Assembly: GCA_002254605.1 (NCBI GenBank)
Contig: NKPV01000011.1
Location: forward strand, 1 to 33,228
Direction of reading: 5' to 3'
DNA from: Armatimonadetes bacterium JP3_11
Lineage (GTDB): Bacteria > Armatimonadota > Fimbriimonadia > Fimbriimonadales > GBS-DC
Length of the DNA stretch: 33,228 nucleotides
Shown one piece after another: positions 19,718-23,960 of the stretch. The notes beneath the pieces were generated by a model that saw only the letters and a program-made list of their open reading frames with translations, ran no database searches and was not told the DNA's origin. Each line of letters opens with the position of its first letter. Positions within the stretch are counted from its first letter, which is position 1. A program made the translations under genes and the position numbers.

Positions 19718-21076
19718 CTATCGCGCTTGGAACGGCACAATCTGGCTAATCGCGCGGGTGCTCCGATCGTTTGTGAACGCTAACACAACCGCATAGTAGG
19801 TGCGCCCACTTACCAAAGGTGGACCGGTATACACCAGTGAAGTGGCAGGCGCGAACACCTTCGCGGCGCCCGGATTGCTCAAGTCCGTTGGATAATACGG
19901 CGCAACAGTGTAATCGGGGAAACGGTCGTAAATCAGCACCAAGTAGTAGTCGGCGTTGGGTACCGCAGTCCACTGCAGAATCAAGCCGTCCACAATCTCG
20001 TTGGGGAACGGACGGGAGAGGGCGATGGGCGTAAAGGGGCGTGCACTGACGCGATTACTCCGCCCAGAGACCGCGCCGGGCAAGTCGTTGAGGTAATCTG
20101 TGTTCAACGCGACCATTTCGTAATAATAAGTCACATTCGGCTGCAGGGCAGGGTCCAAGTCCGCGAAGAAATCCGCCAGCGGGTCGCGCAGGAAGGCGAT
20201 GGCGTTTTGGTTCAGCTCGTCAATCGTGCGTCCGCGATAGATTCCGTAGCCCAGCAGGCTCAGTTGCTCTTGATAGTCCCAACTGAGGTCGATTTCAATC
20301 CAGTAGTCGCTTGGGGCACGGGTGGTTAGGGTGCGTCGTGGGCGGGGCTTCTCGTCAAAGAGTGCGCGGATGGCGTTGTAGGCGTTGCGTTCGCGTGCGC
20401 TGCGTGTTGCACTCAGCACGCGCGGCATCGTCCATGCTGTCGCCGTGAGGTTAAGCGGCGCCTGTACAGGGCGGTTCACAGAGCCGTTCAGCGTGAAACT
20501 AATCACCGTCGTCTGTCCAGCAACCACTTGCGCCGTGCGTTTGTCGTTCTCATAACCGGGTGCGGAGGCGACGATGGGGTATTCGTAGCCTGCCGGCAGC
20601 CCCGCGATACGATAGAACCCACGCTTATCGGTGATCGCGAACGCGCTGCTGAGCGCCCCCCCTGCAAACACCCGCGCTCCTTCGATGCCTACGCCAAACG
20701 CATCGCGCACGAAGCCCTCTATGGCGCCCTGGCGGTTCGCAGGCGCAATCATAATGTTCACATTTTTGGTCTGCTCGTTCTCGAACACTTGCGCCACATT
20801 TTGCCCCGTGTATTCCACGCCGTTAATCACCGCACGGGCGCGGATGAGAGTAAACCGGTCGGGCACATTCGTCAGGTAATAGGTGCCGTTGTGCAACGAG
20901 CGGGTCTGACTGTTCACAGAGTTCGCTGCGAAGACTTCCGCGTTGGCGACAGGCTCTCCATCGATGTCGGTAATCGTGCCCGAGACCACACCCACTTTAT
21001 TCTCGCCGCCGCACCCGGCGACACCCATCACGGCGCACGCAGCCCAAACGATCCACCAGACGCCTCGCTTCATCAT
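19718..21076 (-). CDS. Lipoprotein with carboxypeptidase-regulatory-like and Fn3-like domains
   Basis: 452 aa from the ATG at 21076. A further-upstream ATG (21118) would start right on a terminator tail and spoil the signal peptide. The signal (MMKRGVWWIVWAACAVMGVAGC) ends in a lipobox VAGC with lipidated Cys22. Two beta-sandwich carboxypeptidase-D-regulatory-like repeats follow: about residues 28-112, VSGTITDIDGEPVANAEVFA, and 116-200, IEGFVRDAFGVGIEGARVFA. Each has a GxYxLxxLPxG-type end. The C-terminal half has two fibronectin-III-like stretches (IDLSWDYQEQLSLLGYGIYR; LILQWTAVPNADYYLVLIYD). It is likely an outer-membrane or periplasmic surface protein; no enzymatic residues are seen. It lies downstream of a PEP-CTERM gene and separated from it by a terminator. 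Confidence 0.85.
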   Translation of the reverse strand: MMKRGVWWIVWAACAVMGVAGCGGENKVGVVSGTITDIDGEPVANAEVFAANSVNSQTRSLHNGTYYLTNVPDRFTLIRARAVINGVEYTGQNVAQVFENEQTKNVNIMIAPANRQGAIEGFVRDAFGVGIEGARVFAGGALSSAFAITDKRGFYRIAGLPAGYEYPIVASAPGYENDKRTAQVVAGQTTVISFTLNGSVNRPVQAPLNLTATAWTMPRVLSATRSARERNAYNAIRALFDEKPRPRRTLTTRAPSDYWIEIDLSWDYQEQLSLLGYGIYRGRTIDELNQNAIAFLRDPLADFFADLDPALQPNVTYYYEMVALNTDYLNDLPGAVSGRSNRVSARPFTPIALSRPFPNEIVDGLILQWTAVPNADYYLVLIYDRFPDYTVAPYYPTDLSNPGAAKVFAPATSLVYTGPPLVSGRTYYAVVLAFTNDRSTRAISQIVPFQAR

Positions 21077-21122
21077 ACAGGCAGACGATTCGCGTCCCCC
21101 GAAGTTTCTCCTGCGCATAATC

Positions 21123-21147
21123 AAAAAGGACGGCAGCGACGCCGTCC
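21123..21147 (-). terminator. Rho-independent terminator of the first PEP-CTERM gene
   Basis: On the - strand GGACGGC, a 6-nt loop, GCCGTCC and then TTTTT: a perfect 7-bp stem with a proper T-run, 35 nt after the stop at 21182. Confidence 0.8.
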
Positions 21148-21181
21148 TTGCGTGGTTGCCTACCTGCAGAAAGGAGGGGAG

Positions 21182-21826
21182 TTAGACTTGACGACGGCGG
21201 AGCAATAAGCCGCCCAACCCCGTCGCCAACGCAATCATGCTGGCAGGCTCTGGAACAACGGTCCAGTCCTGTTCCACCAGCATCAACGCTGCGCCAGAGC
21301 CCGGCTGACCGCCGCCCAGCAGTTGGAAAGTCTCGTAAACCGTGACATCGTTGGCAGGCGCCGAGAGCGTCGCAGGGATGACGACACTGAACGCGCCGTC
21401 CGAACCGCCTGCATAGGCGCTGCCCTGAAACATGCCATTGGCTTGCCACAGAATCGCGTTGTCCGAGTTGCGTACGACCTTCTTGAACCAGATAATCTGT
21501 CCGTAGTTAAATACAGCCCCCGAAATCACGAAGTTGAAGCCGCTCAGGTAGGGCTGTGTATTCGTCGGGTCATTGATCGTATACTGCCCCAAGAAGCTGC
21601 CATTGTTGAACCCTGTCCCTAAGCCGACTATCAACGGGTTCGGCATAGCCAGCGCGGTTTGGAAGGTAACCTGGGGGACGGGACTACTCTGTACGATGGT
21701 CGGCACCGTAACAGGTGTCGTCGGCAAGTACAGGACGCCGCTACTGTTCAGAATGGTCACATTCCACGAGGCGAATGCGCTTGCCGCAACGGCAAACACT
21801 CCCAGCGAAATTATCCATCGTTTCAT
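21182..21826 (-). CDS. PEP-CTERM surface protein (paralogue 1)
   Basis: 214 aa from the ATG at 21826, which has GGAGG 7 nt upstream; the longer frame to 21883 would include the promoter. A signal peptide (MKRWIISLGVFAVAASAFAS) is followed by a beta-rich body and a C-terminal sorting signal: VPEPASMIALATGLGGLLLR, i.e. the PEP motif, a hydrophobic helix and a basic tail (RRRQV). Such proteins are cut by an exosortase, and the PEP-CTERM system is tied to exopolysaccharide. The body is homologous along its length to the next gene (shared ASWN, FNFVISG, KKVVRNSDNAIL, DGAFSVVIP, LMLVEQDW). Transcription probably starts at a sigma-54 promoter (21879-21894). No exosortase gene is in the window. Confidence 0.92.
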   Translation of the reverse strand: MKRWIISLGVFAVAASAFASWNVTILNSSGVLYLPTTPVTVPTIVQSSPVPQVTFQTALAMPNPLIVGLGTGFNNGSFLGQYTINDPTNTQPYLSGFNFVISGAVFNYGQIIWFKKVVRNSDNAILWQANGMFQGSAYAGGSDGAFSVVIPATLSAPANDVTVYETFQLLGGGQPGSGAALMLVEQDWTVVPEPASMIALATGLGGLLLRRRQV

Positions 21827-21878
21827 GGTTGTTCCTCCATTTCCATGAGGCGCTTCGTATGCGCACTGCCTTGCATAG

Positions 21879-21894
21879 AGCAATTTCTATGCCA
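21879..21894 (-). promoter_or_regulatory. Sigma-54 (-24/-12) promoter of PEP-CTERM gene 1
   Basis: TGGCATAGAAATTGCT on the - strand fits TGGCAYR-N4-TTGCW with exact spacing. The predicted start, near 21868, gives a leader of about 41 nt with a proper ribosome site. Confidence 0.7.
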
Positions 21895-21912
21895 ATCATC
21901 TATTTTCGTTGA

Positions 21913-21928
21913 AAAACTGGTATTTTTT
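21913..21928 (-). promoter_or_regulatory. Conserved 16-bp box upstream of PEP-CTERM gene 1
   Basis: AAAAAATACCAGTTTT on the - strand, 18 bp upstream of the -24 element. The identical 16-mer occurs at the same distance before the second PEP-CTERM gene. It is roughly dyad-symmetric at its ends (AAAA/TTTT), suggesting a protein binding site centred near -52. Confidence 0.65.
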
Positions 21929-21955
21929 GCGATTTTTGGCTCTATAAAAGCGTTT

Positions 21956-21980
21956 CGGGCGAGGGTGGATCCCTCGCCCG
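21956..21980 (-). terminator. Hairpin terminator after PEP-CTERM gene 2
   Basis: A perfect 10-bp stem CGGGCGAGGG / CCCTCGCCCG with a 5-nt loop, followed on the - strand by AAACGCTTTT. It lies 29 nt past the stop of the upstream gene. The T-run is short and offset. Confidence 0.6.
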
Positions 21981-22008
21981 ATGCTACTGTAACAAGCGTC
22001 CCAGCAGT

Positions 22009-22656
22009 TCAGCGTTTGCGTCGGCGTAGCGCCATGAGCCCCACCAGACCGCTGCCGAGAGCAATCATGCTGGCAGGCTCGGGCACCCAGTCCTGCTCTA
22101 CCAGCAGCAAAGCGGCTGTGGAGGTCGGGTGCGTGGGCAGCACGAACAGCAGGAAGTTCTCGTACACCGACACATCATTCGCGGGTGCCGCCAGCGAGAC
22201 AGGAATCACCACACTGAACGCGCCGTCCGTGCCGCCGAAGCCCGACCCAGCGAACATGCCCGAGTCGTTGTACAGGATAGCGTTATCGGAGTTGCGTACA
22301 ACCTTCTTCTGCCATACAATCATCGCGCTGCCATCGACGACGCCCGAAATCACGAAGTTGAACCCCGTAAGCATGCTCGTGTTGCCCGGTTGGGGGCTAA
22401 TCTGGTACGCTGCAGAGAAGGTCCCGTTCAGGAAGGTGGTACCGTCGCCCACCAGAATAGGGTTGGGGGTTGCGACAGCCGTGAGGAAAGTCACCTGGGG
22501 CAGAGGATGGTTGACCGTCACATAGGGCACATTCACTGGGGTCGAAGGCGGGTTCAGCACCCCGCTGCTGATCGAGACATTAATATTCCACGACGCGAAC
22601 GCTCCTGTCGCCAGAGCGCTTACCATCAAGACCGAAGTCATCAGTCGTTTCATCAT
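22009..22656 (-). CDS. PEP-CTERM surface protein (paralogue 2)
   Basis: 215 aa. Signal peptide (MMKRLMTSVLMVSALATGAFAS), beta-rich middle, and a C-terminal VPEPASMIALGSGLVGLMAL plus basic tail (RRRKR), the PEP-CTERM exosortase signal. It is a clear tandem duplicate of the downstream gene, roughly 40-50% identical by eye over the mature part, with the KKVVRNSDNAIL block unchanged. AAGGAGG lies 8 nt before the first of two ATGs. It is driven by a sigma-54-type promoter at 22730-22745 and separated from paralogue 1 by a terminator, so the two are independent transcription units with matching control regions. The function is unknown; surface or extracellular matrix is likely. Confidence 0.92.
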   Translation of the reverse strand: MMKRLMTSVLMVSALATGAFASWNINVSISSGVLNPPSTPVNVPYVTVNHPLPQVTFLTAVATPNPILVGDGTTFLNGTFSAAYQISPQPGNTSMLTGFNFVISGVVDGSAMIVWQKKVVRNSDNAILYNDSGMFAGSGFGGTDGAFSVVIPVSLAAPANDVSVYENFLLFVLPTHPTSTAALLLVEQDWVPEPASMIALGSGLVGLMALRRRKR

Positions 22657-22729
22657 ATCGATCCTCCTTTTCGGTTTGGGAGGCGAATCGGGCGTACAGA
22701 CAAAACCTCACCAAACCAATCCTTTGACC

Positions 22730-22745
22730 AGCAATCTTCGTACCA
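22730..22745 (-). promoter_or_regulatory. Sigma-54 (-24/-12) promoter of PEP-CTERM gene 2
   Basis: TGGTACGAAGATTGCT on the - strand keeps the GG and GC dinucleotides at exact sigma-54 spacing and the TTGCT -12 box. The predicted start is near 22719, with a leader of about 62 nt. Confidence 0.7.
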
Positions 22746-22763
22746 AAGTTCCGTGTTTTGGAG

Positions 22764-22779
22764 AAAACTGGTATTTTTT
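22764..22779 (-). promoter_or_regulatory. Conserved 16-bp box upstream of PEP-CTERM gene 2
   Basis: The same AAAAAATACCAGTTTT as at 21913-21928, again 18 bp upstream of the -24 element. It ends 7 bp before the tgt stop codon. Confidence 0.65.
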
Positions 22780-22786
22780 CGGGGGT

Positions 22787-23875
22787 CTATAGTGCGCCTG
22801 TTTTGATCGCCTCGCGCAGGTGCGCCATCCAGCGGGCATAGTAGGCAAGGTTATGGTAGGTCGCCAGCCGCAAACCGAGCAGTTCACCCGCACGAAACAG
22901 ATGGTGGATATACGCCAGCGTGTAGCGTTGACATACCCAGCAGCGGCATTCGGGATCGATCGGTTCTCGCGCCTCCAAATGTTTTGCGTTGCGCAGGTTG
23001 AGCCTACCGCGCGAGGTGAACACCGCGCCATGCCGCGCCATGCGTGTCGGCAGGACGCAATCGAACATGTCCACGCCTTGCTGCACCGCATGGAGAATAT
23101 CCTCAGGCGTGCCGACCCCCATTAAGTAGCGGGGTTTCTCGGCGGGCATGCGGGGCGCCACGAACTCCACGATCCTGCGTATCTCCTCTACGGGCTCGCC
23201 GACCGATACGCCGCCAATCGCGTAGCCGGGCAACTCCAACGAGGTAATTTGTTGCAGGCTCATTAGGCGCAGGTCTTCGTGAACACCCCCCTGAATAATG
23301 CCGAACAGAGCGCCTTCCCCGTTCGTGGAGAGGGAACTGGTCGATTCCCAAGCCTGTTTACTCCGAATAGCCCACTGGTAAGTGCGTTCCGTGGCGCGCG
23401 CCACGGCGTCATAACTCGCAGGATATGGAGGGCACTCATCGAACGCCATCATAATGTCGCTTCCCAGATGACGCTGAACCTGAATCGAGCGTTCAGGCGT
23501 GAAGCGATGTTCAGAGCCGTCGAGGTGCGAGCGAAAGGTCACGCCCTCGTCGTCAATCTGGCGCAGCCCGGCGAGGCTAAATACTTGAAACCCACCGCTA
23601 TCGGTCAAAATCGCGCCCGACCAGCTCATGAACCGATGCAAACCGCCCAGACGCGCGATACGCTCATCTCCCGGGCGCAGGTATAAATGGTAGGTATTAC
23701 CCAAGATAATCTTGAAGCCCAACTGCTCCAGCTCGTCTTGGCTGAGCGTCTTCACACTTGCCTGCGTCCCGACGGGCATAAATACAGGCGTCTCAATCAC
23801 GCCGTGCGGCGTGTGGAGCTTGCCCACGCGGGCATGGGAGCGAGTAGACCGAGCGACCGTTTCGAAACGAATCAT
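22787..23875 (-). CDS. tgt: Queuine tRNA-ribosyltransferase (bacterial TGT)
   Basis: 362 aa from the ATG at 23875 (a GTG one codon earlier is possible; neither has a well-placed Shine-Dalgarno). The full TGT barrel is present. ILTDSGGFQVFSL holds the general-base Asp. The substrate-pocket FGIIQGGVHEDLR is followed by YAIGGVSVGEP. The nucleophile Asp lies in MFDCVLPTRMARHG. The zinc site CRCWVC precedes a His about 10 residues on (YIHHLF). It exchanges G34 for preQ1 in tRNAs with GUN anticodons, as part of queuosine synthesis. No queA or other que genes are adjacent. It lies 85 nt downstream of the pilB-like gene on the same strand and may share its transcript. Confidence 0.97.
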   Translation of the reverse strand: MIRFETVARSTRSHARVGKLHTPHGVIETPVFMPVGTQASVKTLSQDELEQLGFKIILGNTYHLYLRPGDERIARLGGLHRFMSWSGAILTDSGGFQVFSLAGLRQIDDEGVTFRSHLDGSEHRFTPERSIQVQRHLGSDIMMAFDECPPYPASYDAVARATERTYQWAIRSKQAWESTSSLSTNGEGALFGIIQGGVHEDLRLMSLQQITSLELPGYAIGGVSVGEPVEEIRRIVEFVAPRMPAEKPRYLMGVGTPEDILHAVQQGVDMFDCVLPTRMARHGAVFTSRGRLNLRNAKHLEAREPIDPECRCWVCQRYTLAYIHHLFRAGELLGLRLATYHNLAYYARWMAHLREAIKTGAL

Positions 23876-23960
23876 CACTGAAGAATTGTTCAGGCTGCTC
23901 CTTTAGTTGGGTCTATGGGGGTTCCGTCCTCAACCCGGTATCGGCGCGTCATACTGCCCC

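Follow-up and report, generated by a model that had tools for sequence, protein, structure and literature searches.

Sigma-54 promoters and a conserved upstream box at PEP-CTERM genes of Fimbriimonadales: two probable layers of control for surface genes

Two PEP-CTERM genes stand in tandem in the genome of Armatimonadetes bacterium JP3_11, and upstream of each lie a sequence of sigma-54 (-24/-12) form and, a fixed distance further out, one and the same 16-bp box. What is the box for, and does it belong to the sigma-54 promoter beside it? A preliminary description of this DNA took the box to be the site of the promoter's own activator, in a circuit of the kind run elsewhere by RpoN and the PrsK/PrsR two-component system. 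We have examined this reading in the window (the whole stretch of DNA analysed, 33,228 nt, contig C108), in the rest of the source genome (G000; a 2.6 Mb draft, 94% complete), and in relatives, which are metagenome genomes of Fimbriimonadales (Armatimonadota), among them one complete genome, G010. The features of the locus are collected in Table 1.

Table 1. The tandem PEP-CTERM genes, their upstream elements and flanking features, in positions of the window
Feature	Position	Strand	Details
PEP-CTERM gene 1	21182..21826	-	214 aa; from translation; TIGR02595 27.4 bits
PEP-CTERM gene 2	22009..22656	-	215 aa; signal peptide-like start and PEP-CTERM tail; TIGR02595 26.1 bits; PF07589
Sigma-54 -24/-12 promoter, gene 1	21879..21894	-	TGGCATAGAAATTGCT; predicted start ~21868
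Sigma-54 -24/-12 promoter, gene 2	22730..22745	-	TGGTACGAAGATTGCT; predicted start ~22719; orthologous element in genus
Box copy 1	21913..21928	-	AAAAAATACCAGTTTT
Box copy 2	22764..22779	-	AAAAAATACCAGTTTT; starts a few bp beyond the tgt stop codon
GC-rich hairpin 3' of gene 2, possible terminator	21956..21980	-	lies just 5' of box 1; T tract weak; seen in sequence, not called by terminator scan
Intrinsic terminator-like hairpin 3' of gene 1	21126..21149	-	10-bp stem, then TTTGATTATG; terminator scan
tgt (queuine tRNA-ribosyltransferase)	22787..23878	-	upstream neighbour; TIGR00430 516.6 bits

The preliminary description placed and spelled the boxes and the sigma-54 elements correctly throughout, and both genes are PEP-CTERM genes as it said, scoring above the TIGR02595 cutoff of 16 bits. 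Their proteins are 61% identical, and their coding regions agree at 421/630 nt. Since gene 1 is followed by a terminator-like hairpin, and a search of 21000-22900 gave no sigma-70-type promoter, the two look like single-gene units. The upstream neighbour, tgt, is not part of the regulon. On the downstream side, and separated from gene 1 by the terminator-like hairpin, lies a gene (19718-21124, reverse strand) with carboxypeptidase-regulatory-like domains and a weak match to an S-layer glycoprotein.

When the two upstream regions are compared, anchored on the box, they agree at 16/16 positions in the box and 11/16 in the sigma-54 element, but at only 6/18 in the spacer, 6/40 in the next 40 nt downstream and 3/11 in the 11 nt upstream. 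The distance from box to sigma-54 element is exactly 18 nt at both genes, and an identical 16-mer at one fixed offset has a chance probability of ~3e-10. The earlier observations that the spacing is the same at the two genes, and that the DNA around and between the elements is unlike, are thus borne out. The exact 16-mer occurs in 2 copies only, genome-wide; with up to 3 mismatches it has 15 sites in this genome, against 3 for the reversed pattern. The arrangement also recurs elsewhere: orthologous tandem genes in many members of the genus, and in one neighbouring genus, carry the box and the sigma-54 element equally far apart; the sequence of the spacer varies, as do the genes nearby. Beside box 2, for example, there is tgt in this genome and a divergent rplU-like gene in G010 and G007.

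The machinery for sigma-54 transcription is in place. The genome encodes rpoN, for which the preliminary description had suggested looking, with its RpoN box (ARRTVAKYR) intact, and the two promoters have the -24 GG and -12 GC in consensus form. The PEP-CTERM proteins are accompanied by one exosortase (PF09721, G000:C56:22366-23076, 155 bits). A scan for sigma-54 activators (PF00158) in 15 genomes, a set separate from the complete G010, found one strong match in this genome and no more than one in any of the 14 others; the weak matches look like other AAA+ proteins. The strong match is a protein of 388 aa, comprising a receiver (REC, 4-113), an AAA+ domain (140-306) and its lid (311-386), with a GAYTGA loop. 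A domain scan revealed neither a Fis-type HTH nor any other DNA-binding domain: the stop codon comes directly after the AAA+ lid, and prfA begins a few bases 3' of the gene. Nor is there an HTH in those homologues, from within the genus and from further families of the order, whose C-terminal ends the sequence includes. A GAFTGA-type loop without a DNA-binding domain is the composition of the type Ic activators.

A histidine kinase gene adjoins that of the activator. The kinase scores 108.7 bits against the PrsK model TIGR02916 (cutoff 300), the part scanned being the 320-aa C-terminal portion of an 842 aa open frame. The activator itself reaches 379.2 bits against the PrsR model, under the NCBI cutoff of 502.6, and having no HTH besides, it was rejected as PrsR. 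Of the PrsR-like regulator that had been anticipated, there is then a response-regulator AAA+ protein beside a kinase, though not PrsR; and of the proposed control by RpoN and PrsK/PrsR, the sigma-54 promoters are present on several PEP-CTERM genes, while the activator falls short of the PrsR cutoff. Close to the kinase/activator pair (G000:C90:6500-14500) there is a frame resembling glutamine synthetase, and a nitrogen signal is for this reason possible.

The sigma-54 circuit appears to extend beyond the pair. A pattern search yielded 17 sites here, versus 4 for the reversed pattern, and 16 in G010, versus 5; near-consensus sites precede PEP-CTERM genes, a gene for a polysaccharide-export protein, and genes for a REC-PilZ protein and a sigma-70-family sigma factor. 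The polysaccharide-export gene, with the sigma-54 promoter at its head, begins a co-directional run of ~10 genes that includes the sole exosortase and keeps its order in both genomes (G000:C56:19500-30500 and G010:C1:1237800-1248800). RpoN probably drives the two PEP-CTERM genes and this EPS/exosortase operon, and sigma-54 would in this way tie the exosortase to a subset of the proteins that it sorts. At the conserved sigma-54 promoters of these other targets the box is missing, the best match within 150 bp having 4-7 mismatches, so the box, as judged from these sites, is not a general requirement at sigma-54 promoters. Those before the REC-PilZ and sigma-factor genes (L096/L093 and L100/L097) are conserved, which suggests that c-di-GMP and sigma-factor cascades lie below sigma-54.

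Some sigma-54 elements stand upstream of what are probably small RNAs. One such RNA (L094, G000:C161 ~31237; L091, G010 ~1378021) has ~45 near-identical nt, including a CCTCATAAG...CTTATGAGG hairpin that bears AAGGAGG, followed by a terminator-like hairpin; no convincing ORF was found in it. A second (L092, G000:C160 ~14156; L079, G010 ~367018), of ~110-130 nt, is less conserved in sequence; at its end are a strong GC hairpin and then T-rich sequence. An Rfam search of the sigma-54-driven RNAs returned no match. At a further pair of loci (L098, G000:C237 ~34569; L095, G010 ~1645750), the sigma-54 element is followed by a 96%-identical stretch that contains a GC hairpin and repeats of TCCCTCC (anti-Shine-Dalgarno-like). 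The stretch apparently lies next to where a convergent gene ends, and is possibly a regulatory RNA.

The box, for its part, is found well outside the sigma-54 promoters. Its consensus is AAAAATACNAGTTTT, and in a scan of 113 genomes of the order its excess over control proved confined to this family, which disposes of it as an order-wide motif. Summed from that scan, the family has 70 sites, distributed over 18/18 genomes, where the reversed control gives 6, and the relaxed box lies far above its reversed control in 15 genomes. Upstream regions of PEP-CTERM genes contain it, with up to 2 mismatches, in 6/31 cases in G010 and 4/14 in this genome, where block shuffling predicts 0.015; these two gene sets and the genome-wide counts are free of bias, whereas loci retrieved by means of the box itself are a sample skewed toward it. 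Most PEP-CTERM genes have no recognisable box, and in G010 21/31 lack both the box and a sigma-54 element. With up to 2 mismatches, G010 as a whole has 13 sites, compared with 2 in the control, and ~12 lie close to where an exported or surface gene begins. Many box-bearing PEP-CTERM genes have TATAAT-type promoters instead of sigma-54 ones. With gene classes assigned by ORF ends and a small number of domain scans, and sigma classes by promoter sequence, the other targets are genes for secreted proteins with dockerin-like tails, prepilin-like proteins, FliD and a REC-HD-GYP protein, and in one genome flagellin. In marking PEP-CTERM genes the box behaves as the preliminary description expected; it marks other surface genes too.

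Upstream of the REC-HD-GYP-like gene the box is conserved in several genomes (L127, G009; L144, G004; L145, G001; L014/L223, G000:C347). The dockerin-like tail, DVNSDGVVDDADLLIVLFNFG, is common to several of the box-linked exported proteins (L010/L292, L007, L297 and L304). It had no Pfam match in the one protein tested, and is perhaps another surface-attachment signal.

Upstream of these promoters the box keeps to a few fixed distances. From the start of a forward box to the TGG of a sigma-54 element is 33 bp in 17/21 cases and 44 bp in 2; to a TATAAT-type -10, in a register drawn from few cases, it is 48-50 or 60-62 bp. The steps of 11 bp suggest helical phasing. From the start of a reverse box to the -10 is exactly 43 bp in 13/14 of the sites within 42-45 bp, among them that of fliD (GCCGATAAT), the promoter of which is sigma-28-like. 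In the core of the box, T5, C7 and G10 are invariant in 28/28 in-register forward sites. The in-register sites as a whole include many orthologues, and so are not all independent. Some copies form a recognisable inverted repeat, CTNGTA-N4-TACNAG. By eye, reverse copies often extend as CTGGTA-TTTT-TACCAG, with one half-site equal to the forward core, and in forward copies the left half is degraded, leaving the repeat imperfect there.

Fixed geometry of this kind suggests a regulator in contact with RNA polymerase, the simplest case being an activator. A repressor that silences surface genes from the same sites is the first of the alternatives, and an unlikely one. The reverse copies overlap the -35 region of their promoters, as an operator for repression might, but the forward copies sit upstream of the promoter elements, at ~-45 to -63; the register to the -10 and -24 elements is fixed, whereas repressors usually tolerate varied positions; and the reverse sites apparently lack good -35 hexamers, as activator-dependent promoters do. 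Alternatively, a box-binding protein could serve the AAA+ activator in trans as its missing DNA-binding subunit, recruiting it to the promoter. A single activator without an HTH, and a near-invariant register of 33 (or 44) bp to the -24 element, speak for such recruitment. We consider it improbable all the same: many conserved sigma-54 promoters are without a box, so recruitment is not generally needed, and boxes also occur at promoters that are independent of the AAA+ activator.

The preliminary description had the box as an enhancer site for a PrsR-type sigma-54 activator, unusually close to the promoter, and this fares worse. The box does precede PEP-CTERM genes, and at the genes discussed here its distance from the sigma-54 element is 18 bp with few exceptions (29 bp in two cases). 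The sole strong activator has no HTH, however, so the box is not that protein's HTH site, and we rejected it as the activator's binding site; the ~6% absent from this draft could hold a further, HTH-bearing activator, but none of the other genomes scanned has such a protein. Other conserved sigma-54 promoters do without the box, sigma-A promoters of the TATAAT type and sigma-28-like promoters have it, and the known PrsR motif is different, ending in TTTACA and lying at a variable 32-92 nt (PMC1569441); the enhancer-site reading is, on these grounds, very improbable. Least credible is a UP element, bound directly by the alpha subunit of RNA polymerase, or else an A-tract bend. The position (~-45 to -63) and A/T flanks would suit either, but the most invariant bases include C and G (28/28), surface genes are what the box marks, and its two orientations come with different registers.

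Which protein reads the box? The shape of the operator suggests a CRP-family regulator, but this candidate was set aside since no such protein tracks the box across the family: the box-bearing genomes G014, G015 and G016 have no strong CRP-family (PF13545) match. A small, GerE-like protein of the LuxR type has a box in G017; it was likewise rejected as the binder, its orthologues in the genus being without one.

Putting these observations together, all of them from the comparison of sequences, we favor, at a probability of roughly 70%, two layers of regulation at this locus: a sigma-54 layer, served by a lone AAA+ activator that has no DNA-binding domain, and a second layer in which the box is the operator of a separate regulator. 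In the first, sigma-54 would transcribe both PEP-CTERM genes from their -24/-12 promoters, which the single receiver-AAA+ protein, phosphorylated by the adjacent kinase, would open, probably from solution. The same circuit would drive the EPS/exosortase operon, the genes for the REC-PilZ protein and the sigma-70-type sigma factor, and probably the small RNAs. In the second, a putative sequence-specific regulator, most likely an activator in contact with RNA polymerase, would bind the box at set distances from promoters of all three kinds, sigma-54, sigma-A and sigma-28-like, on their upstream side, and its targets would be PEP-CTERM, dockerin-tail, prepilin, FliD and HD-GYP genes. A more specific form of the proposal is that one DNA-binding activator coordinates surface genes over all three promoter classes. 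It would use a single operator, in either orientation and at helical-phase steps, and be superimposed on a sigma-54 circuit whose lone activator does not bind DNA. We advance this form tentatively, and would give it somewhat less than even odds.

How does this arrangement compare with systems already known? CRP/FNR-type activators act from class I and class II sites. Like their operators, the box has a 5-4-5-like inverted repeat, and its positions upstream of the -10 (48-50 and 60-62) are about one helical turn apart; unlike in CRP/FNR systems, no CRP-family protein accompanies it through the family.

The nearest parallel is the proteobacterial PrsK/PrsR system. In that system, PrsR reads, with its Fis HTH, a 17-nt motif ending in TTTACA that lies 32-92 nt upstream of sigma-54 elements, at a spacing of 62.8 (S.D. 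10.6) nt (Haft et al. 2006, PMC1569441). Both systems have single-gene PEP-CTERM units, sigma-54 promoters with a conserved motif upstream, a kinase/response-regulator pair, and EPS/exosortase genes (PMC1569441; Aquincola pepA, PMC9850573). They differ in that the motif here is AAAAATACNAGTTTT, at a fixed 18 nt, rather than one of the TTTACA type; in that the regulator has no Fis HTH and is under the PrsR cutoff; in that the box is also at sigma-A and sigma-28-like promoters; and in the phylum, Armatimonadota. As read from its sequences, the circuit for PEP-CTERM control here is distinct from PrsK/PrsR. Haft et al. (2006) left regulators and motifs outside the system they described to be found (PMC1569441), and among open-licence papers we found nothing on such control in Armatimonadota. 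The PEP-CTERM cis-regulatory circuit described hitherto is proteobacterial; to it can be added, for a second phylum, a motif, its spacing rules, a target list and a sigma-54 circuit, and with these a way to the regulator that can be tested directly.

Sigma-54 activators without a DNA-binding domain, the type Ic proteins, include FlgR of Helicobacter and CtcC of Chlamydia (Francke et al. 2011, PMC3162934; PMC7482065). The activator described here resembles them in consisting of receiver and AAA+ domains only, and in being the single sigma-54 activator of its genome. It differs in its predicted targets, which are an exosortase/EPS operon, PEP-CTERM genes and non-coding RNAs. These hot-spring Fimbriimonadales would then provide two natural cases for study: a sigma-54 regulon that apparently depends on one activator unable to bind DNA, and one operator that serves several sigma classes.
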